In this document: positions 17,840 to 61,900 of the stretch, piece after piece
Position numbering within the stretch: position 1 is the first letter of the stretch
Layout of the letters: each line of letters begins with the position of its first letter
Source of the DNA: Leucosporidium creatinivorum
Taxonomy: Eukaryota; Basidiomycota; Microbotryomycetes; Leucosporidiales; Leucosporidiaceae
NCBI GenBank assembly: GCA_001600635.1
Contig: BCKL01000022.1
Location: 62,001-126,000 of the forward strand
Length of the DNA: 64,000 nt
Direction of reading: 5' to 3'
Notes under the pieces: generated by a model
Seen by the model: only the letters and a program-made list of their open reading frames with translations
Told to the model about the DNA's origin: nothing
The model's database searches: none
Made by a program: the position numbers and the translations under genes

Positions 17840-18312
17840 GACGCGCGACCCCTTGTCCTGGAGGAGAGGTTCGAATCGCCTCGACTTGCTCTTGCTCCCT
17901 ACGCTCACCTCGTCTTCTCGCTTCGACTCGCTCCCGCCGGACGGAAGCAAGACAAAAGCTACTTGGACGACCCTTGACTACTCGCCTTCATCTGCTCCCC
18001 GCTCTCCTACAGCTCACGCACGGACAGCTGGACTCGCCGCTCTCGCTCGAAGCTATTGCGACTCGTTCTGGCTGGATAGGTGAGCACTGCCTGGGCTCGA
18101 GGATAGAGCTTCAGCTGACACTCACTGCTACTAGAGCTCCCGCCCTCGGCCTTGAAGCTACTACCTGCTCGCCAGCACAACAGACGCTCGGTGCTCGTCC
18201 GTCTCGCTCGCCCACGCATAGAAGCTGCTCTCGCTGCTTTTGAACGACTGAGGTGAGTCGGGCGATTAATGGTAGCTGAACTATTGAAGCTGATCGTTCT
18301 ACTGCTTTACAG
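17840..18312 (+). promoter_or_regulatory. Promoter and spliced 5' leader of F-box gene A
   Basis: This parallels the leaders of copies B and C. It has GACAAAAGCTACTTGGACGA (from 17951), then ACTACTCGCC, a leader intron at about 18080-18134 (GTGAGC to CTACTAG), a leader exon containing CACAACAGACGCTCGGTGCT, and a second intron at about 18253-18312 (GTGAGTCGGG to TTTACAG). There is no ATG in the spliced leader. The upstream GAGACCCCTTT block is present only in a weak form near 17845. The structure is seen in the sequence; function as promoter and 5' UTR is inferred. Confidence 0.6.
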
Positions 18313-18408
18313 CTCTCGCCTCCCTTGTCACCTCTCCGACTCCCCCTCAGTCCTCCCCTTTCTCCACCGCCGCCACCCTCCATCTTCCACCGTCCACGCT
18401 CACCCACC

Positions 18409-19656
18409 GTGCCGGTACCATCGCTTCCCAATGAGGTTTTCTGCCTCGTGATTGCCGAGCTTCCGCCCCAGTGCCGCCGCACGCTGGCCGCCATCGCCCT
18501 CACCTGTCGCCGCCTCCTTCCCCTCGCCCGAGCTCCCCTCTACTGCAGCCTCGACATCAAGCCGAGGCTACTCGAGGACAAAGACAACCAGGCAAGCTCT
18601 ATGGTCTACGCGGCAAGCCCGTGCGCCGATGTCACCGAGGACGAAGCCACCCTTTGCTTCCTGTGGCATTTCGACATCCCTTCGCACAAGCTGGTGGAGA
18701 GCTTCATGGTCAATCGCAAGCTCGGCATATACGTCCAGTCTCTGTCACTCGGCATGGAGGATATCGACGATATCAAGAGTGGGATCAGACTACTCGAAAC
18801 GATGGTCGCGCCGTGCCGAGGTCTCCGGCATCTCGAATTGACAGGCGTCGGATGGACGACTGAGGAGAGCTGGGCTTTCGACGCGGTACTCGCTCGCTTG
18901 GCCCCCAATTTGACCGAACTCGGCCTTCCAGGAGCTGGCTGGGACACGCGCCGACTCGCCAGCTCGCTCCGAGCCTTCCCCAAACTCGACACTCTTCGCA
19001 TCAAGACTCTCGACAAGACGGCCCATCACGGAGAGTACTCGAGATCTCGTGGCTCAAACCTCAAAGCTCCTCGTTTTCCCCTCACTACCCTCGAATGGGA
19101 TGGCCTCGGCGTCGGCAAGGAGGCGTTTCGATTCGTTACGAGGCGGTCGGCCTCATCCCTCCGCTCACTCAGCCTTGTGCTCTTCCGGGTTGCGTTCGAC
19201 CTTTCCCACTTCCAGGCTCTCACCAAGCTCCGCATCAAGGACGAGATGGGCGACTACTGGGACGAGCAGAACTCTATCGGCTTCCCTCAAGCCGTTGCCG
19301 ACACTCTCCGCCCATGCCGCTTACTCCAAGATGTAGCAGTGGCTCAGTCCTTCCCATTGTCCTCCCCCGACGCGTGGCAAGCCGCTCGACTTTTCGACTC
19401 TCTCCCCACTTCCCTCACCTCTCTTGACATCCATCGCATCGACGTTTCGCCCTCGTATCTCGTCGGCTTCCTCAGCGACCCCTCGCTCGCACCGAGTCTG
19501 GTCACTCTGACGATGCAGACCGAGGGAGAACAAGCGGAACATAGCTCCTCGTCGGACACGGATCGCTTGGAGCGGGAGCTCAAGAGGCTCTGCGCCGAGA
19601 GGGGGATCGACCTTCATCGGCGTGAATGGAAAGTGGGCCTGAACAAGTCGGTTTGA
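18409..19656 (+). CDS. F-box/LRR-like protein, copy A; ATG start lost
   Basis: An open frame of 415 residues. The F-box is PSLPNEVFCLVIAELPPQCR with LALTCRRLLPLA-like sequence, and leucine-rich repeat-like segments follow. It is close to copy C: compare SIGFPQAVADTLRPCRLLQD here with SIGFPRAVVDAFRPCSSLKD there. F-box proteins recruit substrates to SCF ubiquitin ligases through Skp1. At the site where copies B and C have ATG, this copy has GTG (18409-18411) in CACCGTGCCGGTACCA. No other in-frame ATG lies in the spliced leader. The first in-frame ATG is 18601, after the F-box. So it is a start-loss pseudogene, it starts at a non-AUG codon, or it makes an F-box-less protein. The rest of the frame is undamaged. 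Confidence 0.6.
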   Translation: MPVPSLPNEVFCLVIAELPPQCRRTLAAIALTCRRLLPLARAPLYCSLDIKPRLLEDKDNQASSMVYAASPCADVTEDEATLCFLWHFDIPSHKLVESFMVNRKLGIYVQSLSLGMEDIDDIKSGIRLLETMVAPCRGLRHLELTGVGWTTEESWAFDAVLARLAPNLTELGLPGAGWDTRRLASSLRAFPKLDTLRIKTLDKTAHHGEYSRSRGSNLKAPRFPLTTLEWDGLGVGKEAFRFVTRRSASSLRSLSLVLFRVAFDLSHFQALTKLRIKDEMGDYWDEQNSIGFPQAVADTLRPCRLLQDVAVAQSFPLSSPDAWQAARLFDSLPTSLTSLDIHRIDVSPSYLVGFLSDPSLAPSLVTLTMQTEGEQAEHSSSSDTDRLERELKRLCAERGIDLHRREWKVGLNKSV

Positions 19657-19977
19657 GTAGTCTGTAGAGATGGTTGTGAATGCTTAGACATGTATATGGG
19701 ACCAAAAAAGAGGGCAGAGCGGTCTCGCAAAGGCTGGAGCGCTGGCGAGTCGAAAAAGTGAAGCGGCCCGACTGCTCCCTGAGACACGCTCGCTGTCACC
19801 TTCGCTTCTGAGCAAGTCTATTGCCTACCAGAGATAGCAAAGCTCTAAGGTCGAGCCGTGTGCGTCTAATCTCGAGAGCTCGGCGGCTCAGCGATGCCAC
19901 TTCGCGCTCTCGAAGGGGCGTTCGGCGCTTGTAAGCATCTACAATACAACAGAGGAGCGCAACTAGCTTGTATATAG
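19657..19977. other. Region between two convergent genes
   Basis: The F-box A and GPCR stop codons face each other across about 320 bp. I see no ORF, RNA gene or repeat here. Confidence 0.4.
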
Positions 19978-21700
19978 CTACACGGGTAGTGATAGCACCT
20001 CCTTCTTGTCTTCTTCGCGCCCTAAGAACGTCCCCGCCGATGAGCTTGACACCTGCCTCTTCGCCGAGCCCCGCTCCTCCTCGTCCATCCCGTATGAGGG
20101 CGTTACCGACCAGCTCGGTCGGGAGCTAGTAGCTTGAGCGCCTTCCCCCACACCAAAATTTGAGAGGTTGGGCGTGCACGTCGGCCGAGAATCCCAGGCC
20201 GCGAGGGATGGGCCCGGCTCTCCTCCACCGAAGGAGATGATGGCTCGTGAGAAGGCGTACAGGGCACAGTTGAAGGCGCCTGTGGAGGCGACGATGGCCC
20301 CGCTGGCAAGTAAAACCTGCGGCGACCAATGAGCCCCCGAGTATGCCGCCAGGCGAGAGACGGCAATCGGTGTGCTATGGGAACAAACGAGGTTAGTAGG
20401 CAGGCGAGTCTAGTAAAGTTGTACTCACACTGTGGTCACGTAGATAGCGGGATACGCGAGCATGACCGGGACGATCCGATCGGTAGGTATGTCGCCGCCA
20501 TCTCCTCCTGCCGCTCGACGGCGTTTCACGATCGTGTAGGAAATGATGGAGTAGAGCACGAGGCTCAAAGCTGCCGCCGTGAAGACCCTGGCGGAAGTGA
20601 AGATGGTCAGCGAGGGTCCAGCGGACGATGGAGGCCGAGGCGAGCAGGATCGCCGAGCTTGGACTGAGAGGTCGGCAAGAGGACTGATTGCAGACCTCCG
20701 AGAGCTGGACCTCGGATTCTTAACAGTGAGCTTACCAAAGGTGCCGTAGAAAGAGCCTGTAGATCTCGTACTCTTTGGAAATCCAGCACCAGCCGCCGGC
20801 GCTTGCATCTGCAAGAGAGGCCAAAGAAAGGTGCAGAGGTGTAGGCAAGAGGGAGCCAGGTCAGCGCAGAGTAAGAGTTAGCAGACCACGGGGTCAGGGA
20901 GTAGAGGGAGGGAGACTCGGCGCTCACAAAATGGTCCACCGTGTCGAGCAATCCAGAAGGGCCCGATGGCTGCCATCAGAAACATGACCAGCCACTGGAG
21001 GGTAATGACCGCTACGACGACCTTCATCTTCATTTTGTACGAGTAGACGATCTGGCCGAACATGGCCAGAGTGATCCAGCTGGTGCCGAGCGCACCGGCC
21101 ATAGCTCCGAGCTGGAGCAGCACTGCTTCCGTCGTGCAGGAGGGGGTCGGAGGCGAAGGCATACCGCCCTTGTCGATCCACTGCAGCAAGAGGCTGATTA
21201 GATTTGCCCCAAAGTCGAGACGTGATCGCCTGGCCAGCGCCGAAATCGAACGCCGAGGCAAAAAAACTCAACGGTCCACACGAAAATGAAGCTGAGGCTT
21301 TCCAGGGAGTCTGAGAGAGTGCAAAGTGTTAGTCGACTTGCCTCGCTCAGCGTACCAAGCAGACTCACTGCCAGCAAGGAGATTGAAGAAGAGCAGTCCG
21401 GAGGGACTTGCGAGGAAGCGTAGAGCGCGCCTGTCCTCTTCGAAGGCGACCTTGTCGAAGGCCGAGCGTCTTCTATGCCGTACGACGAGAATCAAACAGT
21501 AGGACACCAACGTCAAGATGCAGGCAAGCGAGATCTAACAGAACCAGCGAGACATAATCAGCGCCTCGCTCTTCTCGACCGAGATGCGACGCCCTGCACC
21601 CTACTTAGCCCAGAGAATCGACCCGGCTTACCATTGAAATCACTCCATTTGCAATCATTCCACTCCTCTTGTCCCCCAGCGGGATCCACTGCTGCTCCAT
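19978..21700 (-). CDS. Seven-transmembrane receptor, Git3/cAMP-receptor-like
   Basis: Exons 21700-21632, 21534-21369, 21310-21282, 21180-20928, 20808-20736, 20587-20429 and 20374-19978 give 381 aa. Splicing yields seven hydrophobic segments: TM1 MISLACILTLVSYCLILVV, TM2 ending LESLSFIFWIDKGGM, TM3 after PSCTTEAVLLQLGAMAG, TM4 VAVITLQWLVMFLMAAIGPFW, a loop with GGWCWIS, TM5 VFTAAALSLVLYSIISYTIV, TM6 VPVMLAYPAIYVTT and TM7 ASTGAFNCALYAFSRAII. The conserved TM3 Cys and the loop GxWCWIS suit the Dicty_CAR/Git3 class of fungal GPCRs, which sense nutrients or small ligands at the plasma membrane through a G-alpha protein. The tail is Ser-rich and basic/acidic. The short exon 3 uses a GTGTGG donor that I chose because it restores the TM2 frame. 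The ligand is unknown. Confidence 0.82.
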
Positions 21701-22658
21701 TGTTGATCTCGTCCTGCGCCTTGCGAATTCGGGCCTCGCGAGCCTCTGGTTTGCGGAGTCGTCCTCCTACAGGCGACTGGAGGGGAAGCGGCGGGCGGGT
21801 ACGCCCCAGTGCGCAAGGCGGTAAGAAGCTGAAGATACTGAGGCGAGAGAAGCGTAGGCCACGAGTGGTAGGGAGCAAAGAGAGAGAGAGAGTTGCAGCG
21901 AGGCGAAGGGGCCCGAGAGTCTGGACTGTTAGAGCTCCGAATATCGTCTCGGCTCGATTCTGTAAGAAACCCACGTTAATTGCGCGGTGATCATGAGACA
22001 GCGGGAGACGAGCTTAAACACAGCAGCCGTCCCGAAAGGGCCGTAGCGATTCGCTGGCGAAACCGAGGTTCGGCGATGGTTTCGGATCCTGCCTGGCTCG
22101 ATTGCGCAGGCCCTTCGGCTCGAGGTGCTGCAGCATTTGTCTGGTAGAGAAGACAGCTGCATTCCTAAGACGCCCATCGCTCTGTAGTCTGGATATGGGG
22201 CGGAAGCGGAGCCGAACAGGATCGTCGAGCTGCTGGACGAGGTCGACCGCCGAGCAAGTGCTGTTGTAGCCATCGAGAGAAAGAGAGCGACCGATCGTAG
22301 AAAGTGAACACATAGTCGACTTCCTTTAAGTAGCGCACTCTCGCAAGGTCGGTCTCTGCAGGAAGCGAAAGCCCCAAAGTCGACCCTGCTCGGCGAAGGC
22401 TTTGGCGGTTCTTGCAGCTCTTCTGCTGTCTTTTTCGAGGCATAGAGCACTGGCTAGCTCTGTTATGCTCTGATTTAGCTCATCAGCGCGCCAAACATTA
22501 CCATGAACAGCGAGAGGAGTCGAGGGCGCAGCGGAGGAGGTCAAAGCGGGCGGAAGAGCGATGAGCGGAGCGATTCGACTCTTTGCCTCTTGCCACGTCG
22601 TCGACTGCGAACCGCCTCACCTCATCTCGTACAGTATCTCAGCACTACACGCCTCAAC
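21701..22658. other. Divergent upstream region with a doubtful ORF
   Basis: It lies between the GPCR (minus) and the zinc-finger gene (plus). A 173-codon minus-strand frame (21929-22450) contains a hydrophobic piece, GTAAVFKLVSRCLMITAQL. A neighbouring frame (21558-21974) reads TIFGALTVQTLGPLRLAATL and then RLRKPEAREARIRKAQDEIN. These could be upstream exons of a longer GPCR transcript or 5' UTR noise. I could not build a consistent spliced model. Confidence 0.3.
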
Positions 22659-23804: not shown

Positions 23805-24131
23805 ACGGCGTCGTTGGGGTGTAGAGGACATGCTTGAGGCTGCTTGCTAGTTCGTGTTACATTTTTGTGCATTTTCATTCTCCGTCGTGACTTGTAGCAG
23901 CCGAGTCAGATTGAAGATTGAGCGAGGGCGCTTCGTCGAAAGCTGCGCCGAGACTTCGCGTGGTGTTCGGCGTTGCTCCTTATTTATTGGTGCTGCGTTT
24001 CTTGAAGTCGTATATCGTCGTACAGATTCGGGGCCGAAAATCGCGGAAGGGCCCCTCTCAAAACCCCACGCTCCGAGGGGACGTCGCGCCGTTTCGTTTC
24101 TTCCCTTTCCCTCTCCCCGCTCGCCTCGACG
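23805..24131. other. Intergenic spacer before the Kre9-like gene
   Basis: 327 bp between two plus-strand genes, presumably terminator and promoter. Nothing specific is recognised. Confidence 0.35.
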
Positions 24132-40400: not shown

Positions 40401-40853
40401 AAGAGGATCGCTTCCCGTCCTCTCGCCGCATCCAAATCGAAGTCAATCGCTATCCTCGCCGACTCGCGACCCGCTGCAGAGGTCAAGAGGCGCAAGGTCG
40501 CTCCAGCCTCCGCCCCTCGAGCGGAGAAAGCCTCCTCGCTCAAGGCTTCGACGACTACGGAGTCGAAGGAGACGATGTGGGCTCGTACGGAGCAGCGACG
40601 CGTGGAGCGAGAGGCGTGGGAGAAGAAGCAGAGGGAGAGGGAGGATGAGGTGCGCCGTTTGAAGGAGCAGCAGAGGAAGAGGGAGGCTGTGAGTCGGCAT
40701 GCTCGTGCTAGGCTCCAGTGCGGTTATTGACCTCTTCTCGCCCTACAGGAGCAAGAGAGGCTCAAGCTCAAGGCTTTGAGGGATGCGTTGGTCATCCACC
40801 CTCATCCCATCCCGGCCTCGACCTACGAGCGCCGAGTTGCGAAGAGGGCTTGA
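37484..40853 (+). CDS. TPX2-like spindle assembly protein
   Basis: Exons 37484-37901, 37964-39501, 39563-40105, 40167-40688 and 40749-40853 give 1041 aa. Most of it is disordered Pro/Ser/Glu sequence. Several TPX2-style pieces stand out: KVQPFTFGSTTHHSRR (a pFxF motif), LTLPRDFDFLNRGAEREAER followed by a long charged helix (RKKRTEQREKERQIKEQEEA), and WARTEQRRVEREAWEKKQRE. The C-terminal LRDALVIHPHPIPASTYE resembles the TPX2 end (LRxxxVHKAxPIxxY). TPX2 proteins bind microtubules, activate Aurora kinase and nucleate spindles; clear TPX2 is often hard to find in fungi. The start is the ATG after a leader, in frame with MAPFISLLPVRKDK. Alternative: another helical microtubule or chromosome-passenger protein. 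Confidence 0.62.
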
Positions 40854-40939
40854 AGGAGGGGTATCATTCGACTTTCTTACATCTTAGTCCATTGCTTTAC
40901 ATGTTGATTTTCATTCGCTCGTCTCTGAAGTTGAGCAGC

Positions 40940-41407
40940 GAGCATGAGACCCCTTTACAGAGCGAGTGACGACGCTTCAGCTCCAAGTACTTTTGCCCTC
41001 CTGCGCTCACCTTGTCCGCATCGCTTCGACTCGTTCTCGTCGGCTGGAAGCAGGATAAAAGCTACTTGGACGACACTCGACTACTCGCCTACATCTCCCT
41101 CGCTCCTACAGTTCAAGCACGGACAGTCGGACACGCTCGAAGCTCTCGCGACTCGTTCTCGCTAGGCAGGTGAGCTCGACCTGGGCTTGAAGGGTGGAGC
41201 TGTAGCTGACATTAACTGCTCCCACAGCTCGCCCTCTCGTCCTCGAAGCTGCGACCTACTCGCCAGCACAACAGACGCTCGGTGCTCGTCCGTGTCGCTC
41301 GCCCACGCTTAGGAAGCTGCTCTTGCGCTGCTGCTGGACGACTGAGGTGAGTCGGGCAGTTCTCGAATAGCTACTGGAGTCAAGCTGATACTTTTGTTAC
41401 CCTATAG
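40940..41407 (+). promoter_or_regulatory. Promoter and spliced 5' leader of F-box gene B
   Basis: It contains GAGACCCCTTTACAGAGCG (40946-40964), a TATA-like AGGATAAAAG (41051-41060) followed by CTACTTGGACGACACTCGAC, leader intron 1 at 41170-41227, a leader exon with CACAACAGACGCTCGGTGCT, and leader intron 2 at 41347-41407. Each element has its counterpart at the same relative position in copies A and C. The spliced leader has no ATG before 41482. Confidence 0.65.
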
Positions 41408-41481
41408 CTCTGCCCTTCGACCGAATCATCCCGCCGAGCGCCTCCACCCTCGCACTCCTACCGCCTCTTCGACTCCTCGCC

Positions 41482-43820
41482 ATGCCCATCCCCTCCCTTC
41501 CCAATGAGACCCTGGGAGCTATTTCCTCTCTCATCCGACTCGAGGACGGCCAGACGCTACCCAGCCTAGCCCTCGTCTGTCGCCGCTTCCTGCCCTTCGC
41601 CCGAGCTCGGCTTTACTCCCATCTCGAGATCCGTTCGCAAGGACTCGACGAGGACGAGTTCGAGCGCAGTGACCCAGAGCCGCCCGACCTGTCTTTGGGC
41701 GAGGACCACGAGCACGAAGAGGACGAGAACGAGGAACAGTGGACGACGCGCTCCAATCTCGTTGAAGCCGTTCACGACGCGAGGCGGGAGATGTAGCTGA
41801 ATTGGGCGGCCTGCCGTACATTTCGATGAGCTGATAAAAACTACAAGTTGATAAAACTATACGGAGGGCCAGTGAAACCTGCCCCTGCAGGGAAACTGTC
41901 CGCCCCGTGGTCAACGAGAGTAGCCGAGACGAGAAGGGGAGCGAGACTGAGAAGGGGAGATGAGACCGAGCCAAGGGAGAGAGAGCCGAGAGGCGAAGGA
42001 AGTGTGAGATAAAGAGAGAAAAGAAGGGAAGGAGGGTGGGAAGTCAAAAACCGGCTCGATCTGAGAGATGGCGAGCGATTAGAGACGGTACAACAGGCCT
42101 AGGAGAATGAGCTGCGCGCACCTGAGAGATGGCGAGCGAATACGAGTCCTTGATCAGGCTCGTGAGAGTCGACGGGCGACGATCTGCGACGAGGGAAAGG
42201 AAGTCGTGTGAGCTGGGCTCGGCTCGACTGAGAGGCTAGGAGCGCGCTGAAAGCTCACCTTTGCACTGTTGTGAAGGCGCGAAACAGGCAGAAAGAAAGT
42301 GCAGCGACCGAAACCAACGAGCGAGAGCTGTGGCGAAGGAGAGGGCGTCTAAGGTCAGCTCGAGCTCGCTCGGAGGCGGGCAAGAGGAGACGTACCTTGT
42401 CAAGGCAACTAGACTAGCTGCAGGATCCGACGATGTCGACGAGAGGAGACGACGATGCGGACGGAGCTCAAAAGCTGTCGAGGGACGAGTTCGACTTGAG
42501 CTCCTCAACCTTGGCTCTCGGAGAACAAAGAACTCACTCGACACAAAGGCGCCGGCCTTGCGAGGGAACTTGTCTGAGAGGGAAGGTGGCGATCATGGCC
42601 GAGAGGCTGACTGATGTGATCGACTTGATGAGGTACAGGCTGCAAAGGCAATGGCGCTGTCTTAGCTCGGAAGCCGGATGCGAGACGGGCTCGGCGATGG
42701 GAGAAGAAAGGGAAAAACCCGCCGGACTCGGAAGTCTCGCGGCGCGGGGGGAGAGAGGATGTAGGAGAGTAAAGCTCACTGAGTGCGATTGAACTCCTGC
42801 GCCAATTCCCTCGTGCCTCCTCCAAAGGCGAAGCCGATCTTTCACCACCACTTTGAACCCGCTTCGCGCAAGCTGTTGAAGACCTTCGCTATCAAGCCTG
42901 AGCTCGGAAGCTATGTACGCTCGATTGCGCTGGACTTCTGGTGCCTCCAGGACGCTCGAGATGGAGAGAGGGTGCTCGCGACGATGGTAGCGCCGAGCTT
43001 CGGTCTTCGGCGCCTCGAGATCAAACGCTTGGGATGGAACCTCAAGGAGGGCGAGACTTTCAACGCGTTACTTGCGCATCTAGCTCCGGATATCACCGAG
43101 CTCGAACTCCCCGGCGCCGAGTGGACGACCGACCAACTTTCCAGCGCGCTCCAAGGATTCCCGAAACTCCAGACTCTGCATCTCACGGAAGCAGACGAGG
43201 ACGCTGAGCTTGAAGATTATAACGATTCACCGACTCCAGAATTCCCTCCACCTGTGTTCCAGCTCAAGACCCTCCTCTGGGACGCCTTCTACTTTCGGGA
43301 CGGGGCATTCGAAGTCGTCGCCGGCTCGTCGGCCTCCACCCTCAATCACTTCCGCATGCCCATGCCGCTTTCCGACTTGAGGCCGAAGCTCTCAGACTTC
43401 GCCCACCTCTCCGAGCTTCATGTTCATGCCAGGACGTCAGCTTGGCTCGGCAACGACCTGGACGTGGCGCAAGGCCTGGCCGCTGCTGTCAAAGCATGTC
43501 ACTCACTCAAGACTTTCATCGTGGCTGAGGTTGGACAATATGTTCAACCCTGCACCCCGACGTCTTGGGAGGCCGCAGGCTTGCTCGAGTCTCTCCCTTC
43601 GACCCTCACCTCGCTCGACATCGACGAAGTCGACGTTTCCCTTCCTTACCTTCTCACCTTCCTCCGCAATCCATCCTTAGCCCCGGACCTTTCCACGCTA
43701 TGGTACACAGTCGATCAGCTCGGAAGCGACGCCGACGGTGTTACAGCTTCGGCCATTCGCGCGGAGGAGGTGGAGACAAAGAAGGCGTGCGCCGAGAGGG
43801 GTATCGAGTGGGTTGGCTAG
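41482..43820 (+). pseudogene. F-box/LRR-like gene, copy B, split by about 1 kb
   Basis: The 5' part (41482-41796, 104 codons, ending in TAG) starts MPIPSLPNETLGAISSLIRL, with ALVCRRFLPFARARLYSHLE and an acidic stretch. This is the normal F-box end, with the same PSLPNE core as A and C. Homology resumes near 42828 (KPIFHHHFEPASRKLL, then SYVRSIALDFW) and runs open to 43820 through LATMVAPSFGLRRLEI, ITELELPGAEWTTDQL and LPSTLTSLDIDEVDVSL. In copies A and C these two parts are contiguous. The intervening segment (listed separately) has no good donor and acceptor pair for an intron, and the two parts are also one base out of phase if joined at the shared GAAGCCG. So this copy is most likely dead, although the 5' half could give a short F-box peptide. 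Confidence 0.65.
41771..42829. other. Insertion-like segment inside F-box gene B
   Basis: About 1.06 kb absent from the paralogues. GAAGCCG occurs at both edges (41764-41770 and 42830-42836) and may be a 7 bp target-site duplication, though a chance match in GC-rich DNA is possible. I see no terminal inverted repeats or transposase. On the minus strand there are several donor/acceptor pairs with CTGAC-like branches. Short open pieces can be joined across them: ELAQEFNRT, LYLIKSITSVSLSAMIATF, SLHFLSACFAPSQQCK then DRRPSTLTSLIKDSYSLAIS. This suggests a captured fragment of a spliced gene. The direct repeat CTGAGAGATGGCGAGCGA occurs twice (about 42061 and 42122). Confidence 0.4.
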
Positions 43821-47686: not shown

Positions 47687-47721
47687 ATAGGTCGACCATA
47701 GAACTTGTTGCATTACTATAC

Positions 47722-51344: not shown

Positions 51345-53000
51345 TCAACGCCTCTTCCTCCCCGCCGAGCTCTTCTGCCTCGCCTGACAATCACTACAGT
51401 ACCACGAATCGTTGGGCACGTTCTTGAGTCCGACGCAGGTGAGGTGGAACCATTCGATGCGGCAGTTGGGGGCGTCGCAGCCGATCATCTGGAGGGGTTT
51501 CGGTGAGCGCGAGCGAGGGAGAGGTAGAAGGGAAGGAGAGGTTAGCATGCGCTCGGAAGGAGGAGGAGAGAAAGAGGATAGCTCACCTCGCCGAAAGAAG
51601 GCCTCTTGCAGAAGCAATACGGCGTCATATCCTCTCCCTCTCCGCCCTCCTCGCCCGTATCCGCACTCTCCTCCTCGTCATGTCTCTTCCTCTTCTGCCC
51701 ACCACCATTCCCTCCACTCCCCGCCCCTCCATGATGTCCGTGCCCACTCTGCATCGCCTGAATATGCTGCTGACTCGCCATCTGTTGCGCTGCCAACACC
51801 TGCGCCTGGGCCGCGAGCCGGATCTGCTGCTGCTGGAGATGTTGGTGTTGGGCCATTTGCTGTTGTTGCAGCTGAGCGGCTTGGGCTGGTGTGGCGCCTC
51901 CTCCTCCTCCCATACCAGGATGCCCGCCTCCGTGCCCAGGCGTCCCCGGCGCCGAGTTGGGATAGGTCGTAACGTTCTGCAGTCGTGATGGACGGGCTAC
52001 GCGGTTGCCTGAGCCGCCGCCGGGAGTAGGAGCGAGAGGTGTGCCGTTACCAGAGGCGGAGGGGGAGTAAGGGTAGCCGGGCGATTGGGGGTGTGGTGAG
52101 TGGCCGTTGCTGTTGGCGGGGAGGAGCGGGACTTGGCCGGCGATGGGAGGGGAAGATTGTGGTTGGGCCATCTTGCGTTCTATTGAGTCGTTGGAGAGGA
52201 GGAGAAGAGGGGGGGGGGAGAAGGAGAGAACCAGGGAGCGAGATGGTCAGCACCGAGCTCGAGCCGAGCGTCGAAAGCCTCGATACTCACTGTCGATAGG
52301 AGTGCCGTAGCCGTATCCGCCGGCTCCAGCGGCAGCATAAGCGCTCGGTGCGTAAGGATTGTGGTACTGCGGTACAGGCGCAGCGGGGTTGTAGCCTTGA
52401 GCAGCAGCGCCGGCGGCAGCGTATTGCGAGGGGGTGGGCTGAGCTTGCGCTGGAGGAGTGAAAGACGGGAGGGTGGGGAGTGGTGGTACGTTGGGCGTGA
52501 GAAGCTCGAGTTGGGTTTGGAGGCGGTTGAGGTGGCGGGAGAGCTGTGAGAAGCGAGGAGAGAAGGTCAGCTCTCGGCGAGCGATCAAGCGAGATGAGAA
52601 GCCCCCGACGTACCAGGTTGACCCCTCGTTCACTCAAAGCTACCTTCTCCTTTGCCGAAACCTCTGCACGATCCAGATCCGACCTGTAGGAGAGCCAGCG
52701 CGTAAGCAAACAACGCGACGAGAGCGGCCCTGCTTCCAGCTCGGGTCGAACGCACCTGATTTTGGTAATCAAGGACGGCTCCTTGCTATTGGGTACCAAC
52801 AGACCCTGCCCTCCCTGCGCTGCTGGCCTAGCATGCCTCTGAATCGACTGGTCACGAGCAATGGCGCGGTTCTTGATGTCGTTCGTCTTGCCCTCCTTGT
52901 GGCCGATCTCTTGAAGGATGTGGTGCACTTCGGAAGGGAGGTTGTCCAAGCTGCCTACTACCTCTGCTAGCAGTACAGCGGCGTCTTCTGTCGTGGCCAT
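51345..53000 (-). CDS. ING-family PHD-finger chromatin protein
   Basis: Exons 53000-52756, 52683-52614, 52543-52291, 52179-51587 and 51488-51345 give 434 aa. The N-terminal ING helices (LAEVVGSLDNLPSEVHHILQ, NDIKNRAIARDQSIQRH, LSRHLNRLQTQLELLTP) precede a long Gln/Pro/Gly/Ala-rich middle and a basic RKRHDEEE patch. The C-terminal PHD is complete: CFCKRPSFGEMIGCDAPNC, then CRIEWFHLTCVGL and WYCSDC. ING PHDs read H3K4me3 and belong to NuA4, NuA3 or Rpd3 complexes. Yeast has Yng1, Yng2 and Pho23; I cannot tell which this matches. One intron sits at GE/MIG in the PHD. Confidence 0.92.
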
Positions 53001-53524
53001 TCGGGAGGGAGCGCGAGAGCGAGCTGATGAGAGCGAAGGGGTGAGAAGGAGAGGGCGATAGCCTGCTGTAGGTTCTGTAGGTGCTACTGCTATTCTCGGA
53101 AGCTGTAGTCGAGTGGCGCTGAGAAGTTCGAAGCCGAGGCGAGGCAGGCGAAGCGAGAGAGCTGAGAGAGAGAGAGAGCTGACTTGAGCTTGAAGTGGTG
53201 GCGATTCGGGTACAGGGCCGAGTGGGAACTGTAGGCGAGTCGATCGAGTGGGTTTGTTACTAGTGATAGGTCGGGGGCTGAGCCGCTGCTGCTCGCTCGG
53301 CGTTTGGACTGGGTCAGTTTCTCAGCTCGCGCCCAAAGTCTGCTTTCCTCCTCCTCGCTCGCTCTCGACTCCTCGCTCGCCGCTTCTACTTCAGCTCCAG
53401 CAACTACAAAGAGGTACATAACAGCTCTCAATCTAGCTCTTGGACCTGCGAGTTAACCCTTACACTGTTACAGCTCGGACGAGTAGCGCCCTTTCGCTCG
53501 TCGCAAAAGCGCACTTCGCCCACC
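53001..53524. promoter_or_regulatory. Divergent promoter between ING gene and RPA135
   Basis: 524 bp between two ATGs on opposite strands, containing simple AGAGAG runs (about 53158-53178). No protein-coding frame is supported. Confidence 0.35.
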
Positions 53525-56500
53525 ATGCCCGGCCTCGCTCCCCCTCAGCAGCAGCACGAGCAGGCAGTAGCCGGTCCTTCCAAGACTCCCGTCTCTTCCA
53601 CCTTCCGCACTTTGGACCGCGAGAACGCCTTCCGCAACCCGTCCAACTCGGAGACCAAATATCCCGCTCCGCAAGCTCTCGTCGCCCCTCACATCGACTC
53701 GTTTGATGCTCTCTTCGAGGGAGCTCCCATCGGTCCTAATGGCCAGGTAGAGCAGAGCTTGGGTCTCCTCGATATGGCCATCGCAGACCTCCAACCCAAG
53801 GTGGTCTTCGACGGTCAGGGAGCAGAGGGTTCCCTCGGAAACAGGCTCGAGAGTGAGTACTGACCTCGGGGGCAAGCCAGAAACATAGCTGACACATTCG
53901 CACACAGTCAAGATCGACAACCTACTCGTTGCTCGGCCCATGGCTCCCGAGAAGGGAGTCGGTTCGCGCGAGCGCAAGATCTACCCCTCCGAGGTGAGTT
54001 GTAGCTTTGTCGGCTTGTAGGTAGGACCATTCGCTGACCCTCTCTGCACCACAGTCACGAGAACGGCTAGCGACCTACGCCTCCAAGATGACCGCCAAGC
54101 TCTCATGGTCCGTCAACGGGGGTCCCATCACCTCCGAGACGAGGGAGCTCGGCAACCTTCCCATGATGGTCAAGGTGAGCTCGGGCGAGCGACTTCTAAC
54201 GATGGAGCATCTCTGACCTCTCTCCTTCTCACAGTCGACTCGCTGCAACCTCAAGGGCCTTCCCCCATCCGGCCTCGTCGAGCACCACGAGGAAGCCGAG
54301 GAGATGGGCGGCTACTTCATCATCAACGGCAACGAGCGTCTCATCCGTTTCCTCATCGTTCCCCGTCGCAACCACGTCACCTCCATCATCCGTCCCTCCT
54401 TCGGCAACCGTGGCGCCTCCTACACCCCCTTTGGAGTCGCCATCCGCTCGGTCCGCCCCGATCAAACCTCCCAGACCAACACCCTTCACTACCTCTCCTC
54501 CGGTGGATCGACCCTTCGCTTCAGTTGGCGCAAGGCCGAGTACATGGTTCCCGTCGTCATGGTCCTCAAGGCCCTCGTCGGCGCGACCGACAAGGAGATC
54601 TTCATGGGCATCATGCAGAACGATTTCGAGAACACCTTCCTTACCGACCGAGTTGAGCTCCTCCTCCGTGGATTCAAGAGCGGGTACGGCCTCAAGACGC
54701 AGCACGAATGCCTCGAGTTCCTTGGAGACAAGTTCCGAGTCGTTTTGCAGTGCCCCGAGGATTGGAGCAACGAGCGCGTGGGGCAGTTCCTCATCGACCG
54801 CATCGTCCTCGCCCACCTCAAGGACCCCAAGGATAAGCTCAGGCTCCTCTAGTGAGTAGCGAGGCCGCCCTGACTCGCAAAACTCAAGCGCTGACCTTTC
54901 GCTCCCCATCGCAGCTTCATGATCCGCAAGCTGTACGCCCTCGTCGGAGGAGACTGCTGCGCCGACAATCCCGATTCGCCTCAGCACCAGGAGATCCTCA
55001 TGCCCGGCTTCCTCTACGGCATCATCATCAAGGAGAAGCTCGACGAGCTCGTCGGCGGCATTCGCGCCCAGATCGCCCAGGACGTTCGGCGCAAGGTCCC
55101 CTCGTGCGACTTCCACGACAACCGCTACATCACCAAGACGATCCAGCGCGTCAACGCCGATATTGGAAGCAAGCTCAACTACTTCCTCGCCACGGGCAAC
55201 CTCATCTCGCCTTCGGGGCTCGACCTCCAACAGGCAGCGGGATACACCATCGTCGCCGAGAAGCTCAACTTTACTCGCTACATCTCCCACTTCCGTTCCG
55301 TCCATCGTGGAGCCTTCTTCGCCGAGCTCAAGACCACCACCGTCCGCAAGCTTCTTCCCGAGGCTTGGGGATTCCTCTGCCCCGTCCACACCCCCGATGG
55401 ATCCCCTTGCGGTCTGCTCAACCACTTTGCCCACAAATGCCGACTCATTCACCAGCACCTCAACGTCGACCACCTCCCCGCCCTCCTCTCCTCCCTCGGC
55501 ATGACCCAGCCTCTCGACCCCTCCATCGATGGTCGCGAGAACGTCGTCGTCCAGCTCGACGGTCGCATTATCGGATGGGCATCCCCCGCCCTCGCCATCA
55601 AGATGGCCAACGCCCTCCGCGTCTGGAAGACCGAGGGCGAGCACGACGTTCCCCTCGACCTCGAGATTGGACTCGTCCCCATCTCCAAGGGCGGTCAATA
55701 CCCCGGTCTCTACCTCTTCTCCTCGCGCGCTCGCATGATGCGCGACGTCAAGTACCTCTCCAACGGCAAGACGGATTCGGTCGGCCCCTTCGAGCAAGTC
55801 TACCTTGACATCGCCTGCATGCCCGACGAGGTCGAGAAGGGCGTCACCTCGCACATCGAATTCTCGCCGACCAACGTCCTCTCCCTTCTCGCCAACCTCA
55901 CCCCCTTCTCCGACTACAACCAATCCCCTCGCAACATGTACCAGTGCCAGATGTCCAAGCAGACGATGGGAACGCCCTCCACCGCCCTCTCGCGCCGAAC
56001 CGACAACAAGCTCTACCGTCTCCAGTCGGGTCAGACGCCCATCGTTCGGCCCAACCTCCACAACACGTACGGCATGGATGGATATCCCAACGGTACCAAC
56101 GCCATCGTCGCCGTCATCTCCTACACGGGATACGATATGGAGGACGCCATGATTCTCAACAAGTCGGCCCACGAGCGAGGCTTCGGCCATGGCTCGATCT
56201 ACAAGTCGCAGATTGTCGATTTGAAGAATGTGCGAGGCGATAAGGGGAGTGGAGGAGCGCCCGAGGTGCATTTCGGACTCGGACCGGATGTGAGGGAGGG
56301 AGATGCCAAGCGGGATACGCTCGACGATGATGGACTGCCGTTCCTCGGTACGAAGCTCAAGAGCGGGGATGCGATTTGCGCGTATATCGATAGGATCGCG
56401 GGCAAGACGAGGGTGGAGAAGTACAAGGGAGACGAGGTCGCTTATGTCGAGGAGGTCCGGTTGATCGGTGAGTTGGGCTTCGGCGTTGGTCTCTCCTCGC

Positions 56501-57657
56501 GCTCGGCTCGCTGACTTCTCTTGCCTCTCTGCAGGTTCCGACGCCAACGCCGCCGAAGCTCAAAAGCTGCACATCAAGCTCCGAGTCCCCCGTTCCCCCG
56601 TCATCGGCGACAAGTTCTCCTCCCGTCACGGACAGAAGGGAGTCTGCTCGCAAAAGTACCCCGCCGTCGACATGCCCTTCACCGAATCAGGCATGCAACC
56701 CGACGTCATCATCAACCCTCACGCCTTCCCCTCTCGTATGACCATCGGCATGTTCGTCGAGTCCATCGCCGCCAAAGCGGGAGCGCTCCACGGTCTCGCG
56801 CAAGATGGAACGCCCTTCAACTTTTCCGAGGACGACACGCCCGCGGATTACTTTGGAGAGCAGCTGCGGTTGGCGGGGTACAACTACCACGGCAACGAGC
56901 CCATGTACTCGGGCATCACGGGCGAGGAGTTCAAGGCCGATATCTACATCGGAGTCGTTTACTACCAGAGGCTGAGGCATATGGTCGGCGACAAGTGGCA
57001 GGTCAGGACGACGGGTCCGTTGGACCAGGTTACGCGTCAACCCGTCAAGGTGAGTCCCTCTCGAGTTCGAGTCTGAGCCGAGCCGAGTGCTGACTTCGCT
57101 TTCGCCGCTCTCTTTCTTCTTCTCCTCGCCTCTTTTCCCTCTTTTCACCCCTCTCTCCCCCTTCTCTCCCTCGTTGTCCTACACCACCACAGGGTCGCAA
57201 GCGCGGAGGAGGAATTCGATTCGGAGAGATGGAGCGCGACGCTCTTCTCGCCCACGGCACCTCCTTCCTCCTCCAAGATCGTCTCATGAACTGCTCCGAC
57301 TACTCCACCGCCTGGGTCTGCCGATCCTGCGGCTCCATGGTCTCGCTCGGCTACGACTCGATCTCGCTCGGTCGGGAAATCGGCCTCACCGCCAATGGAG
57401 GAGGCGTCGTCTTGGAGGCGGAGAGGGAGACGGGACCGGGAGGAGAGTACTGCAGGATTTGTAGGGAGAAGGGAGAGGAGGAGATGAAGGCGAGGAGGAA
57501 GGCTGCCAAGGGAGGAGAGATGGTCTTTGAGCGGTTCGGCGGAGATGAGGTCGTTGGAGGTGCGGATATGGAGGTCGTCGCGGTGCCGTTTGTGTTTAGG
57601 TTGCTGCTGAGTGAGCTCGCAGCTATGGGTATCGCTGTGCAGGTCGGCGTTGATTAG
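53525..57657 (+). CDS. RPA135: RNA polymerase I second-largest subunit
   Basis: Exons 53525-53852, 53908-53993, 54055-54174, 54235-54851, 54915-56467, 56535-57049 and 57193-57657 give 1227 aa (yeast Rpa135 is 1203). The RNA-polymerase beta-type domains follow in order: lobe and protrusion ([20 protein letters not shown]), fork ([20 protein letters not shown]), external regions, hybrid-binding domain ([20 protein letters not shown], then [19 protein letters not shown] and [19 protein letters not shown]) and the C-terminal clamp with zinc-binding CRSCGSMV and CRIC. It makes ribosomal RNA with Rpa190 in the nucleolus. The largest single exon is 1553 nt. A 772-codon antisense frame here is a codon-bias shadow. 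Confidence 0.96.
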
Positions 57658-57914
57658 GAGCTCGTCGAGGCTCAGCAGCAATTAGATCGTCGTTATACCA
57701 GCAGAGGGCCTTGGTTTCCAGCGAGCGAGCGAGTAACGAGTCCCGCAGAGGCTTCACGCGAGAGTGCAAGAAAGCCTCGGCGATGGTGGAGAAGGAGGCC
57801 GAGCGTTCGCCGAGGCCAGCCGAGCCGAAGCTCTCGTATCGGCCCGGAGGCGATTCGGTGGACATCGTATCTCTTTACAGCGGACAGTCAAACGTACTAG
57901 CACAGCTCACGACG

Positions 57915-59285
57915 TCAAAGAATCGTCGTCATCACTATTCCTGCTCCCCTCCATATCCTCCTCCTCGAGTTCTCCCACTCTCCCTCGCTCGACTCGGTCT
58001 CTTCCTCCTCACTCGACTCCTCCTCCTCCTCCTCCGTATCACTATCGCTAATGAGTCCGTCCCACTCTCCTCCATCCCACGCCATCACCGCTTCTGGTCC
58101 AGCGAGGTGCTCGCGACGCGAGCCGATGTTCTCGAGCTCGTACGGCGACAGTCGGTAGTGGATGCCGAGCAAGTGGCACCTTTTCGCGACGGCGGGGTGC
58201 GAGTGGAGAGATTCGTCGCTGTGGAGAATGTGGAGGTCGAGGCTGGCGATGGCGGGTGGACGAAATGCTGAGTCGAGAAAGTCGATTACGGTGTCCATTT
58301 CGAAGAGCGCTCCTACGACCTTGAGGGAGGTGCTGGAGGAGGGTACAGCCTTGAGAAGATGTATGCCGCCGACATATCTCCAGACCGAGCCTACGGACAC
58401 GATGCGGTATTCTGCGAAGGGACTGAGAGCCATGCTGAATCGGCGAACCGAGCAGGGGATGTTGGCCTGCTGTAGAGTGAGGATGGCGTCTGTTTCGGGC
58501 GTTCCGAAGCCGTAGTCGAGGTCGAAGTCCTTGAACAGGTGCAGCGATTCGAGTGTGGTGAGTTGGCTGAGGTTGTAGGGGTGTCTGCGAGCCTGGGAAA
58601 TTTCGAGTTCGAGGCTACGAAGAAACGAATGGCAAAGGGAGGTGAAATCCTTGAGGGCGCCTTGAGGGGGGGATCTGCCGAGTTTGAAATGTTGGAAATG
58701 ATGACGAGTAGCAGCCTGCCTAAGACGAGCGCGTCCCTCCTCGTAATCGACGAGGTTGCGCGAAGCTTCAAGCTCCAGCTGCACGCCCTCGAATCCTAGG
58801 GATCGGAGTGGGGGACAGGCATCGAGGTAGGAAGCAAAGTCGTGCAGCTCCTCTATAGAACCCACAGCCTGATAGACGTCGAGGTGTCGTAATTTTGACG
58901 ACGCCGAGGATCCGAGCGCTGCCAGCGCCTGCCGAACCGAGCTCCCCCGGCAGACGACGACGCTGAGCACATTCGGACACATCGCAAGAAGCGCTTCGGC
59001 TTTTTAGAGAGGGGATTCGGCTGTTCCCCACCACCAGCTCTGCGTCTCGACGAGTTCGAGTTCGACTTCCTCAACTGCGAAAGCGAAGGCGGGACGACTA
59101 GTGAGGGTGTTGAGCGCTTTGTCGCTGCTGTCGTATGGTCCGACCTTGAGCTTTCTGAAGAGGTGCGGGTGTGCTACGCTGGCCCATACGCGCGAGACGA
59201 GGCGCAGACGGCGAATGTCGGCCAAGTCCTCGACGAGCTCGGCGATGATGGCGAGGATCTCGTTGGGAAGGGTAGGGAGGGGCAT
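57915..59285 (-). pseudogene. F-box/LRR-like gene, copy D, with one in-frame stop
   Basis: One frame of 457 codons starts at ATG (59285-59283): MPLPTLPNEILAIIAELVED, then RLVSRVWASVAHPHLFRKLK, a bona fide F-box. A TAA codon lies at 59006-59004, after AESPL, and the frame continues without shift as KAEALLAMCPNVLSVVV through leucine-rich segments (LRHLDVYQAVGSIEELHDF, LPLRSLGF-type repeats) to an acidic end. It is more divergent than A, B and C. A hidden intron could remove the stop, but the nearby GT and AG leave only about 40 nt, shorter than any other intron here. So it is likely a recent nonsense pseudogene, or the stop is read through. Confidence 0.68.
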
Positions 59286-60114
59286 GACGATGGGAGGAAG
59301 GTGTGTGGTGCAGTAATAGCTTCTGGGAGGGAGAGGGAGACGGCGAGGGCGGTCGAAGCGGCTCGAACTTGGGCGGTGGGTGACAAGGTGAAGCGAGCGA
59401 GAGCCGGGCGAGCAGCTGTAGGGCATTCGAGAGCCAGGCTCGAGATCAGCATACAGCTCAACTCCTTCTCTCTCAGCCTCCCGCGTCTACTCACCAGCTA
59501 ATCTTGCGAGCAGCGCACAGACCTTGTTGACGAGCAGCGAGCTTGGGTCCTCTCGAGAGATGAAGCGGTCGAGCGAGCTCTGTGGGCGAGAAGAGAGGTC
59601 AGCGATGGGGGCAGGGTAGTAAGGCAGCATCTGACCTCACCGTGAGCCAGTCGAAGCGGCGCCTCAGAGCGTCCTGACAGCGAGCGATGAAGAGGCGGGA
59701 AGCGAGAGATGGAGAAGCTGTAGCGAGTCGAGCTGAGCGAGAGCTGGTGTAGTGAAGCTTCGAGTTGTTCTATAAACTAGGTTTGAGTTTCCTGTAGCAG
59801 CTACGAGGCGAGGCGAGTCGAAGCGATGAGACGAGGTGAGCTTAGGAGAGCAAGAGCAGTGGGCTGAATCGACCCTCGTCTGGCTCTGCCAAGGGGTCTC
59901 ATGAGCTCGCTATGCAACCTCGAGCTCAATTTCGCAGGATCCATAACGTTAGCGAAGGACACCCTCCTATCAGACAGATCCTCGCTCGCTCGCCAGCCTC
60001 GGTCGAGCCTTCGCCGATGTTGCTTCGCTGGCACCGAGAGCAACCGGGAAGCTATAGTGTAGACGTTTAGAACCGTGAACAGCTCCCTCTCATCAAGCGC
60101 TCCGCTCACTCATC
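59286..60114 (-). promoter_or_regulatory. Promoter and probable spliced leader of F-box gene D
   Basis: The GAGACCCCTTGGCAGAGCC block at about 59883-59900 (minus strand) is followed by GCTCTTGCTCTCCTAAGCTCACCTCG and TCGCTTCGACTCGCC, as in the other leaders. A leader intron with GTGAGGTCAG and GCCCACAG lies near 59590-59640. Unlike A-C, the CACAACAGACGCTCGG exon is not obvious here. The stretch 59900-60114 holds the downstream end of F-box C and nothing else. Confidence 0.5.
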
Positions 60115-61320
60115 TCACCACGTCAGCGGAAGCCTCTCAACCTCAATCCCCCTTTCGGCGCAGACCTCGTCGAGCTCCTCCGAGTGTACTCCACCCGCCG
60201 CGATCACCAGACGGGCGAGATATGGCGCACGTGAGGGGTTGCGAAGGAAGGTGAGAAGGTATGACGGCGGAACATCGATATCGTGAAGGTCGAGGGAGGC
60301 GAGGGAAGAAGGGAGAGAGTCGAGGAGTTGAGCGGCTTCCCATGCGTCGGGGTTGGAGCGCGGATAGACTTGCGCTAGTGCTAGATCCTTGAGCGAGCTG
60401 CATGGGCGGAAGGCGTCCACGACGGCTCGAGGAAAGCCGATGGAGTTGCGCTCGGACCAGAACTCGGACATCTCATCCTTGATGCTGAGTTTGGTGAGGG
60501 AGCGAAAGGGGGAGAGGTCGAGGACGTTCACATAGATGCCGAGGCTGAGGGAGCGAAGGGATAGGGATGATGACTCGGTGACGAGCTGGAACTCCTGCTT
60601 GCCAACGCCGGGACCGTCCCAGGTGAGAGTGCCGAGTTGGAAGCGAGGGGTTTGGAGCTCTGAGCCAGGTGAAACTGGTGCTCCCACGCGATCCGTTCCG
60701 TTGAGCTTTGCGAGGCGAAGGCTGTTGAGCTTGGGGAACCCTCGGAGCGAGCTGGCAAGGCGGTCTTTAGTCCATTCGGCACCGGGGAGGAGGAGGTCGG
60801 TTATATTGGGGGCCAGAAGAGCAAGGACCGTGTCGAAAGGCCAGCTCTCTTCGTTCGTCCACTCGACGCCCTGGACTTGAAGCCGCCGAAGAGCTCGGCA
60901 CGGCGCAGCCATCGCTTCGAGCAGCTCAACACCCCCACGGGCAGAGAGCCCCCTCAGGTCCAGCGAGAGAGATTTGACGTACATCCCGAGACCGGGATTG
61001 GCAACGACAGAGCGCACGAGGCTGCGCGAGGCGAGTGCGAAATGGCAGAAACGAGGGCGAGTCGCCGGTTCCCCAGCGAGCTGATGCATTTGTCGAGTGG
61101 AGCTGCTCGGCTGAAGCTCATCCTCCTCCTCCTCCTCCTCCTCCTCCTCGTCGTCGTCCTGTACCCACCGGACTTCGAGATGGTGGTACAGGTGAGCTCG
61201 GGCGAGGGGGAGGAAGCGTCGGCAGACGAGGGCGCAGCTCATTGCGGTTCCATGGTCCAGTCCACCGTTCGACTCGAAGATAAGACTGATGGTTTCGTTG
61301 GGAAGGGAGGGAATGGGCAT
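60115..61320 (-). CDS. F-box/LRR-like protein, copy C (intact)
   Basis: A single exon of 401 aa from the ATG at 61320-61318. The F-box (MPIPSLPNETISLIFESNGG, ALVCRRFLPLARAHLYHHLE) is followed by an acidic run of Asp and Glu encoded by a CTC/GTC triplet repeat (about 61118-61160). Next come repeats with AAPCRALRRLQVQGVEWTNE, ITDLLLPGAEWTKDRLASSL, FDLSPF-like and SIGFPRAVVDAFRPC segments, and LPSSLASLDLHDIDVPPSYL. It should bind Skp1 and recruit substrates to an SCF ligase; the target is unknown. It is the undamaged reference for the family. A possible upstream TTG start in the same frame has no leader support. Confidence 0.85.
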   Translation of the reverse strand: MPIPSLPNETISLIFESNGGLDHGTAMSCALVCRRFLPLARAHLYHHLEVRWVQDDDEEEEEEEEEDELQPSSSTRQMHQLAGEPATRPRFCHFALASRSLVRSVVANPGLGMYVKSLSLDLRGLSARGGVELLEAMAAPCRALRRLQVQGVEWTNEESWPFDTVLALLAPNITDLLLPGAEWTKDRLASSLRGFPKLNSLRLAKLNGTDRVGAPVSPGSELQTPRFQLGTLTWDGPGVGKQEFQLVTESSSLSLRSLSLGIYVNVLDLSPFRSLTKLSIKDEMSEFWSERNSIGFPRAVVDAFRPCSSLKDLALAQVYPRSNPDAWEAAQLLDSLPSSLASLDLHDIDVPPSYLLTFLRNPSRAPYLARLVIAAGGVHSEELDEVCAERGIEVERLPLTW

Positions 61321-61900
61321 GGCGAGGAGTGGCGGAGGCGGTTGGGTGGGGAGGAGAAGGAGCTCGGAGGGCAATCGAACGGAAGAGCTGTGGAGCAGCA
61401 GAGGTATCAGCTTCGGTCCACTAGCTCGCTAGTAGTCGCCCAGCTCACCTCAGTTGTCCAGTAGCAGTGCGAGAGCAGCTGCCTCAGCCTAAGCGAGCGA
61501 GACGGACGAGGACCGAGCGTCTGTTGTGTTGGCGAGTAGGTGGTAGCTTTGAGGGCGAGAGGGAGAGCTGTGGGAGCAGCAGATTTCAGCTACAGCTTCA
61601 CCCTTCAAGTCCAGGTCGAGCTCACCTTCCGAGCGAGAATCAGTCACGAAAGCTTCGAGCGGTGAGTCCAGCCGTGCGTGCGTGAGCTGTAGGAGAGCGA
61701 GCGAGGTGTAGGCGAGTAGTCAAGTGTTGTCCCAGTCGTCTTTTGTCCTGCTTCTAGCCAGCGAGAACGAGTCGAAGCGCTGAGACGAGATGACCGTAGG
61801 AGAGCAAGAGCAGTTCGAGCTGGAATCGAGCCTCGTCTGGCTCTGCAAAGGGGTCTCTCAGGTTCGCTCTTCGACCTCGAAGCAGGGAGATGTAGAGTAG
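61321..61900 (-). promoter_or_regulatory. Promoter and spliced 5' leader of F-box gene C
   Basis: On the minus strand: GAGACCCCTTTGCAGAGCC (61841-61857), GCTCTTGCTCTCCTACGGTCA, TATA-like GGACAAAAGACG (about 61737-61748), ACTACTCGCC, leader intron 1 (61625-61568), a leader exon with CACAACAGACGCTCGGTCCT, and leader intron 2 (61448-61388). No ATG precedes 61320 in the spliced leader. Confidence 0.65.

Follow-up and report, generated by a model that had tools for sequence, protein, structure and literature searches.

The window analyzed here is a 64-kb stretch of contig BCKL01000022.1 of the basidiomycete Leucosporidium creatinivorum, with a guanine-plus-cytosine content of 57–65% (per 2 kb). 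This single window holds five copies of an F-box gene family, A to E, the last of which is cut by the window edge. Self-BLASTN places them as follows:

17.7–19.6 kb, + strand: copy A
40.8–43.8 kb, + strand: copy B
62.0–60.2 kb, − strand: copy C
59.9–57.9 kb, − strand, behind C: copy D
left window edge, − strand: copy E

Copy A pairs with C over 17822–19538, and B pairs with C over both 40827–41658 and 42848–43675. The distal block of D pairs with C at 83% over 120 bases, and the left edge of the window pairs with C (1–185), B (1–250), and D (1–68). The initial annotation proposed that A, B, and C share a promoter block, a TATA-like site, and a two-intron leader, an arrangement borne out by BLASTN, motif, profile, and segment-by-segment alignment. 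The distal block is also kept, as proposed, in D and at the left window edge, where the E block lies within one mismatch. As read from the sequence, the introns in the A, B, and C leaders are of the GT-AG type and 55–61 bases long. Predicted transcripts would start near GACTACTCGCC and have both leader introns removed. The segments upstream of the coding regions are:

17845–17951, +: A, distal promoter block with a weak GAGACC core (alignment, profile)
17952–17975, +: A, TATA-like ACAAAAG segment (alignment)
17976–18079, +: A, leader exon 1, conserved (alignment)
18080–18134, +: A, leader intron 1, GT-AG (predicted splicing)
18135–18252, +: A, leader exon 2, holding CACAACAGACGCTCGG, conserved (motif, alignment)
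18253–18312, +: A, leader intron 2 (alignment)
18313–18408, +: A, leader exon 3, poorly conserved (alignment)
40946–41054, +: B, distal promoter block (motif, alignment, profile)
41055–41078, +: B, TATA-like ATAAAAG segment (alignment)
41079–41169, +: B, leader exon 1 (alignment)
41170–41227, +: B, leader intron 1 (alignment)
41228–41346, +: B, leader exon 2 (motif, alignment)
41347–41407, +: B, leader intron 2 (alignment)
41408–41481, +: B, leader exon 3 (alignment)
61747–61857, −: C, distal promoter block (motif, alignment, profile)
61722–61746, −: C, TATA-like ACAAAAG segment (alignment)
61626–61721, −: C, leader exon 1 (alignment)
61568–61625, −: C, leader intron 1 (alignment)
61449–61567, −: C, leader exon 2 (motif, alignment)
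61388–61448, −: C, leader intron 2 (alignment)
61321–61387, −: C, leader exon 3 (alignment)
59813–59900, −: D, distal promoter block, 77/88 identical to C (88%), then a sharp drop to 24/53
59286–59812, −: D, diverged leader with weak similarity and two GT-AG introns placed by eye at about 59640–59580 and 59494–59416
1–68, −: E, distal promoter block, the gene extending past the left window edge (BLASTN, motif, profile)

These shared elements recur well above chance. Searched at up to three mismatches, CACAACAGACGCTCGGT has three matches in the window, exact in A, B, and C, against a chance mean of 0.24, with three reached in 1 of 100 shuffles. The distal block at the same tolerance has four matches (B, C, D, and E, each within one mismatch) and none in A; here the chance mean is 0.12, and no shuffle of 100 reached four. 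A block profile built from the five copies recovers all five, as built, and has no other match at E < 0.1 in the window. The leader profile, built from A, B, and C, scores these copies at 350–370 bits, and its best match outside the copies lies at 53992–54054 (E 0.032, 7.5 bits in the 64-kb window). The same leader in front of unrelated genes, which the initial annotation had named as the sign of a common repeat, is thus not seen within the window for the block, and for the leader the best further match is this weak one.

The leader had been described as better conserved than the protein, which holds for exons 1 and 2 and more weakly for the block, and fails for intron 2 and, in the AB and AC pairs, for exon 3. 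Exons 1 and 2 together differ at 27/207 sites between A and B (13%), 39/212 between A and C (18%), and 34/210 between B and C (16%), whereas fourfold sites, taken from codons that encode the same amino acid, differ at 51/105 (49%), 56/134 (42%), and 52/110 (47%), respectively (Fisher's test, p = 4e-11, 4e-6, and 6e-9). The ratio of Jukes–Cantor distances, exons 1 and 2 over fourfold sites, is 0.18 (AB), 0.35 (AC), and 0.24 (BC) in a stricter alignment and 0.18 (0.11–0.30), 0.27 (0.16–0.44), and 0.22 (0.13–0.37) in a lenient one. Intron 2 differs at 37%, 32%, and 38% of sites, not different from fourfold sites (p 0.15–0.26), and the exons differ from intron 2 at p = 1e-4, 0.033, and 6e-4, uncorrected for several tests. 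The block with the TATA-like segment differs at 28%, 25%, and 22% (p = 0.0017, 0.0061, and 4e-5 against fourfold sites), exon 3 at 39%, 44%, and 22%, and intron 1 at 22%, 31%, and 10%. Kimura two-parameter (K2P) distances, in the order AB, AC, BC, are:

block: 0.42, 0.34, 0.27
exon 1: 0.17, 0.22, 0.22
intron 1: 0.26, 0.42, 0.11
exon 2: 0.12, 0.21, 0.16
intron 2: 0.52, 0.43, 0.59
exon 3: 0.57, 0.70, 0.27

Under lenient gap costs even shuffled segments are 70–82% identical, so identities judged by eye overstate the similarity. The gap-free comparison of B and C shows the same contrast (102/119 identical in exon 2, 52/58 in intron 1, 38/61 in intron 2), and the effect is therefore not created by gap placement; A and C are identical at 78/96 sites in exon 1, 95/116 in exon 2, and 38/55 in intron 1. 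In the comparison of leader with coding identity, which had been set beforehand, the leader came out higher by K2P distance, amino-acid identity, and Fisher tests. Because exons 1 and 2 are slow relative to fourfold sites and intron 2 is near them, the leader exons look constrained and not merely co-transported. The apparent constraint is located in exons 1 and 2 and more weakly in the promoter block, not in intron 2 and not, for AB and AC, in exon 3.

The genes behind these leaders are in different states. Three of the four visible genes (A, B, and D) look damaged, and C alone is intact:

18409–19656, +: A, F-box frame with a leucine-rich repeat (LRR)-like part, open over 415 codons (frame, alignment)
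41482–41796, +: B, F-box frame of 104 codons plus stop, ending at 41796 (PF12937 21.3 bits, below the cutoff of 24.3)
41797–42839, +: B, about 1 kb that neither A nor C matches, parting the F-box from the LRR-like part (edges approximate)
42840–43820, +: B, LRR-like part, open and fast-changing (frame, site counts)
60115–61320, −: C, 401-residue F-box/LRR-like protein, the sole copy seen intact (PF12937, structure search)
57915–59285, −: D, distant F-box gene (PF12937 31.9 bits)

Copy A has GTG at the position of the ATG in B and C; the ATG that follows lies in another frame, and an in-frame ATG does not occur until codon 65, past the F-box. The roughly 1 kb in B carries 7-base direct repeats near both edges, and a search of it for transposon features found no convincing terminal inverted repeat. 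The frame of D has an in-frame TAA at 59006–59004 after 93 codons, followed by 362 open codons. Short F-box-only frames thus occur in both D (93 codons) and B (104 codons). An intron containing the D stop was considered; nine GT-AG spans would keep the frame, and none of them has the GTGAGY donor seen in the A, B, and C leader introns. Since long open frames persist in A, B, and D, the damage may be recent, short products may be in use, or some of the lesions may be reading errors. Among the 3′ flanks, no clear homology was found in six copy pairs (equaled in 27 to 267 of 300 shuffles, B–C having the lowest count).

PF12937 scores above its cutoff (24.3) in two of the four visible genes, narrowly in C (24.7 bits) and clearly in D; A (17.6) and B fall below. 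Copy C reaches 17.7 bits with a Pfam LRR model (cutoff 27), and no Pfam LRR family passes. Its AlphaFold model is an alternating strand–helix array with a mean predicted local distance difference test (pLDDT) score of 68.7 and a predicted template modeling (pTM) score of 0.70. A Foldseek search of this model against the PDB, in the best 50 of 62 matches at E ≤ 0.001, returns a DQC ligase, COI1, TIR1, D3, Dia2, and Skp2; ribonuclease inhibitor and other LRR proteins are also among the matches listed, and query TM-scores are 0.27–0.47. A search of the PDB by sequence gave one match, at E 0.95. Like FBXL receptors such as Skp2, Dia2, and COI1/TIR1, C is modeled with an N-terminal F-box-like domain followed by alternating strands and helices. 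Unlike them, it has no Pfam LRR above cutoff, shares 11–19% identity with the matches listed, and has an acidic linker. It is likely, though not proven, that C belongs to the F-box/LRR family.

Amino-acid identity is 39% for AB, 51% for AC, and 44% for BC. The suggested difference at about half the residues between B and the others extends to A and C, so the feature is not one of B alone. Synonymous divergence (dS) is 1.09, 0.94, and 1.09 for AB, AC, and BC, and the ratio of nonsynonymous to synonymous divergence (dN/dS) is 0.55, 0.43, and 0.47, values that are rough with dS near 1 and exceed 1 overall in no pair. In 60-codon windows between A and C, the proportion of nonsynonymous differences (pN) is 0.20–0.32 in the LRR-like part (codon 100 onward) versus 0.41–0.51 in the F-box and linker. 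Between these two copies, the putative LRR-like part is the slower, better-conserved part of the coding sequence. The earlier statement that the substrate-binding part changes fast is accordingly unsupported for A and C and applies to B. Across 867 sites of the LRR part, changes unique to B number 194, against 107 for A and 94 for C; across 177 sites of the F-box part, the counts are 15 (B), 33 (A), and 25 (C). The contrast between the two parts is significant for B against C (p 4e-4) and A against B (p 2e-5) and not for A against C (p 0.66); the boundaries were picked post hoc, and four alternatives give p 2e-5 to 1.5e-4 for A against B. The simplest reading is a loss of constraint in the LRR part of B, because a stop and about 1 kb of unmatched sequence part it from the F-box.

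Other patterns in the coding sequences yielded less. Between A and B, pN exceeds its synonymous counterpart (pS) in the windows starting at codons 20 (0.52 versus 0.40) and 40 (0.55 versus 0.50), with too few sites for positive selection to be claimed. Accelerated F-box change in A following its lost start is unsupported by the A-against-C comparison. Three-way site patterns (p 2.7e-8) were rejected as evidence of mosaic exchange because patterns among three sequences measure branch lengths; what they show is that B is fast in the LRR part. A codon-position test of the unique changes was uninformative (third-position share 0.23–0.54, none significant).

Copy B directly follows a TPX2-domain gene (PF06886 at 25.7 bits against a cutoff of 25, in a piece joined over one predicted intron), and traces of the last exon of this gene, referred to here as the tag, lie upstream of other copies:

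40749–40853, +: final exon of the TPX2-domain gene that precedes B, from which the tag in E and C probably derives (PF06886)
136–284, −: upstream flank of E, degenerate copy of the TPX2 last exon and 3′ splice site (alignment)
61858–61964, −: upstream flank of C, about 20 bases like the TPX2 coding end and post-stop sequence (shuffles)
17737–17841, +: upstream flank of A, possible colinear similarity to the B upstream region, mixed (global and local alignment)

The tag in E is identical to the TPX2 last exon at 107 of 132 aligned bases, gaps excluded, and has stops in all three frames. None of 500 shuffles (z 14.8) and none of 805 other window stretches, each of 300 bases and outside the copy loci, aligns as well. 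The trace in C was equaled in 0/500 shuffles for C–E and 3/500 for C–B and in none of the 805 stretches, scoring 20 versus 19 for the next best. The A flank was equaled in 0/500 shuffles globally, and locally in 32/500 shuffles and 9/805 stretches; the D flank was equaled locally in 80/805 stretches, and globally in 5/500 shuffles against B and 5/500 against C. The tag indicates that the segment from which E descends reached into the end of the TPX2 gene, and the same probably applies to C. The B locus is the likely source of the spread. Copies A, B, and C retain both predicted leader introns and the promoter block, as DNA-mediated duplicates do and retrogenes do not, which argues for copying at the DNA level. 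Of the earlier proposal that gene units move or duplicate with promoter and untranslated region attached, duplication is thus upheld by the introns, the promoter, and the tag in E; no support was found for movement as a mobile element.

Copy D stands apart. Beyond its block, the D leader is weakly like those of A, B, and C (as good in 0/300 shuffles and 0/314 real stretches). Its protein resembles the others in the F-box alone (36% over 50 residues), the remainder having a best match at E 0.096. A single-sequence structure model of D was poor (pLDDT 42.3) and was set aside. C and D are neighbors, and an exchanged or locally duplicated promoter patch would be the simplest account of their shared block.

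We favor, with a probability of about 0.6, an old DNA-level duplication of an F-box/LRR-like gene that carries a constrained regulatory leader, followed by birth and death. An F-box/LRR-like gene adjoining the TPX2-domain gene would have been copied as DNA to other sites in the same region, the copied unit comprising the gene, its promoter, both introns of the leader, and at least once a portion of the neighbor's last exon. The copies would be old, given strongly diverged synonymous sites, and birth and death would have left C intact, A without its start, B interrupted, and D with an in-frame stop. The block and exons 1 and 2 are what stays alike, the exons changing roughly one-fifth to one-third as fast as fourfold sites. 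Since they are slower than both fourfold sites and intron 2, these exons are most likely under selection for a role in the timing or manner of transcription, splicing, or translation. As substrate receptors, the proteins would act in Skp1–cullin–F-box (SCF) ubiquitin ligases. Within this account, the homology, the relative rates, the tag in E, and the lesions are directly shown, while the direction from B, the splicing, the regulatory role of the leader, and the SCF function are inferred.

Several observations weigh against this explanation. Full leaders number three, all within 64 kb, and the absence of ATG from them is not significant (chance of none 0.12–0.15 each). Intron 1 is indistinguishable from the exons (p 0.06–0.31), and its B–C identity is 90%, so one tract of gene conversion may span exon 1 to exon 2. 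The B and C leaders fold more weakly than shuffles (z 1.9 and 2.3), so structured RNA does not account for the constraint. The TPX2 domain is just 0.7 bits over its cutoff, and three unspliced pieces of that gene are unmatched. The tag is strong in E only, with a margin of one point in C and no local significance in A or D. The model of C, at the scores given above, is of moderate quality.

The main rival is gene conversion or ectopic recombination, which would homogenize the 5′ ends without any function in tracts that run from the block to exon 2 and end before intron 2. We regard it as possible but doubtful. It draws on intron 1, which matches at 52/58 sites between B and C and differs significantly from the exons in no pair, and on the D block, whose close match to the neighboring C breaks off sharply despite the distant D protein and looks like an exchanged or duplicated patch. 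However, it requires an identical right-hand edge in all three pairs, and between A and C intron 1 is only 38/55 identical while exons 1 and 2 keep 78/96 and 95/116. A bolder extension of the preferred explanation, in which the block, exon 1, intron 1, and exon 2 form a promoter–leader cassette that acts as a regulatory address and co-expresses the scattered F-box family, seems unlikely. If it were true, the main target of selection would be the switch, ahead of any single protein, while members are copied, broken, and replaced, and that switch may drive intact products from C, F-box-only products from B and D, and LRR-only products from A side by side.

We give very little credence to a leader that belongs to some dispersed repeat or mobile element and precedes F-box genes by chance. 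The block is present five times and has a sharp edge in D, but neither profile finds a convincing further copy in the 64 kb, and the homology extends into coding sequence and, in E, into the neighbor's exon. Divergence also varies by segment, and intron 2 is old, which fits old gene duplicates and not a young insertion. It is just as improbable that a separate non-coding RNA gene, or a hidden coding exon, makes up or lies within exons 1 and 2. Few stretches of the unit change as slowly as these exons, yet their lengths in A, B, and C (104/91/96 for exon 1, 118/119/119 for exon 2) differ by amounts that are not multiples of three, and Rfam gave no match at gathering score. A structured leader RNA was likewise rejected, as B and C fold worse than shuffles (195/200 and 198/200 shuffles at least as good).

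The observation is real and clearly exceeds chance expectation, and known processes explain most of it, in what is otherwise ordinary F-box birth and death. The informative extras are the contrast in rates from segment to segment and the neighbor-exon tag. When a copy keeps a degraded piece of a neighbor's exon, it directly records the place from which a family spread. With a leader that is slow in damaged and intact copies alike, whether regulation or protein sustains the family becomes testable.

The phospholipase A2 genes of snake venom are a possible parallel: in work attributed to Nakashima et al. (1995), the non-coding parts of paralogues are said to be more alike than their proteins, with coding change reportedly accelerated by positive selection. 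The F-box copies here differ, with dN/dS of 0.43–0.55 and leader exons slower than fourfold sites. In rapidly duplicating F-box families of Caenorhabditis, dN/dS stays below 1 in every paralogue pair mentioned except one (PMC8665587), and the present family is like them in combining duplication, some loss, and dN/dS below 1. In Caenorhabditis, however, the N-terminal F-box is constrained and the C-terminal part has peaks above 1.5 (PMC8665587), the reverse of A and C here. The main text of that study has 0 occurrences of "utr" or "promoter" and hence, to that extent of the source, no leader comparison (PMC8665587). F-box counts for Microbotryum and relatives appear in PMC4469406. Among the titles and abstract openings listed by literature searches, none described a conserved leader for a family of fungal F-box genes. 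Exact leader patterns had 0 matches in viral_contigs and 0 in genome_contigs, and protein pattern scans of the viral and prokaryote collections gave 40 and 22 matches, none a relative; as these are viral and prokaryote collections, both results carry little weight.

Other genes lie between and beside the copies. Upstream of A, a ubiquitin carboxyl-terminal hydrolase (UCH) gene occupies 14999–17045, with PF00443 at 25.7 bits in 16320–17045 (cutoff 23.9) and at 18.2 bits, below cutoff, in 14999–16489; its position beside an F-box gene is probably a coincidence. An RNA polymerase I second-largest subunit (Rpa2-like) gene lies at 54898–57654 on the + strand (PF00562, PF04565, PF06883, PF04560). 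On the − strand, a gene with a PP4R3 EVH1-like domain lies at 8631–9971 and one with an ING N-terminal domain at 52290–53321.

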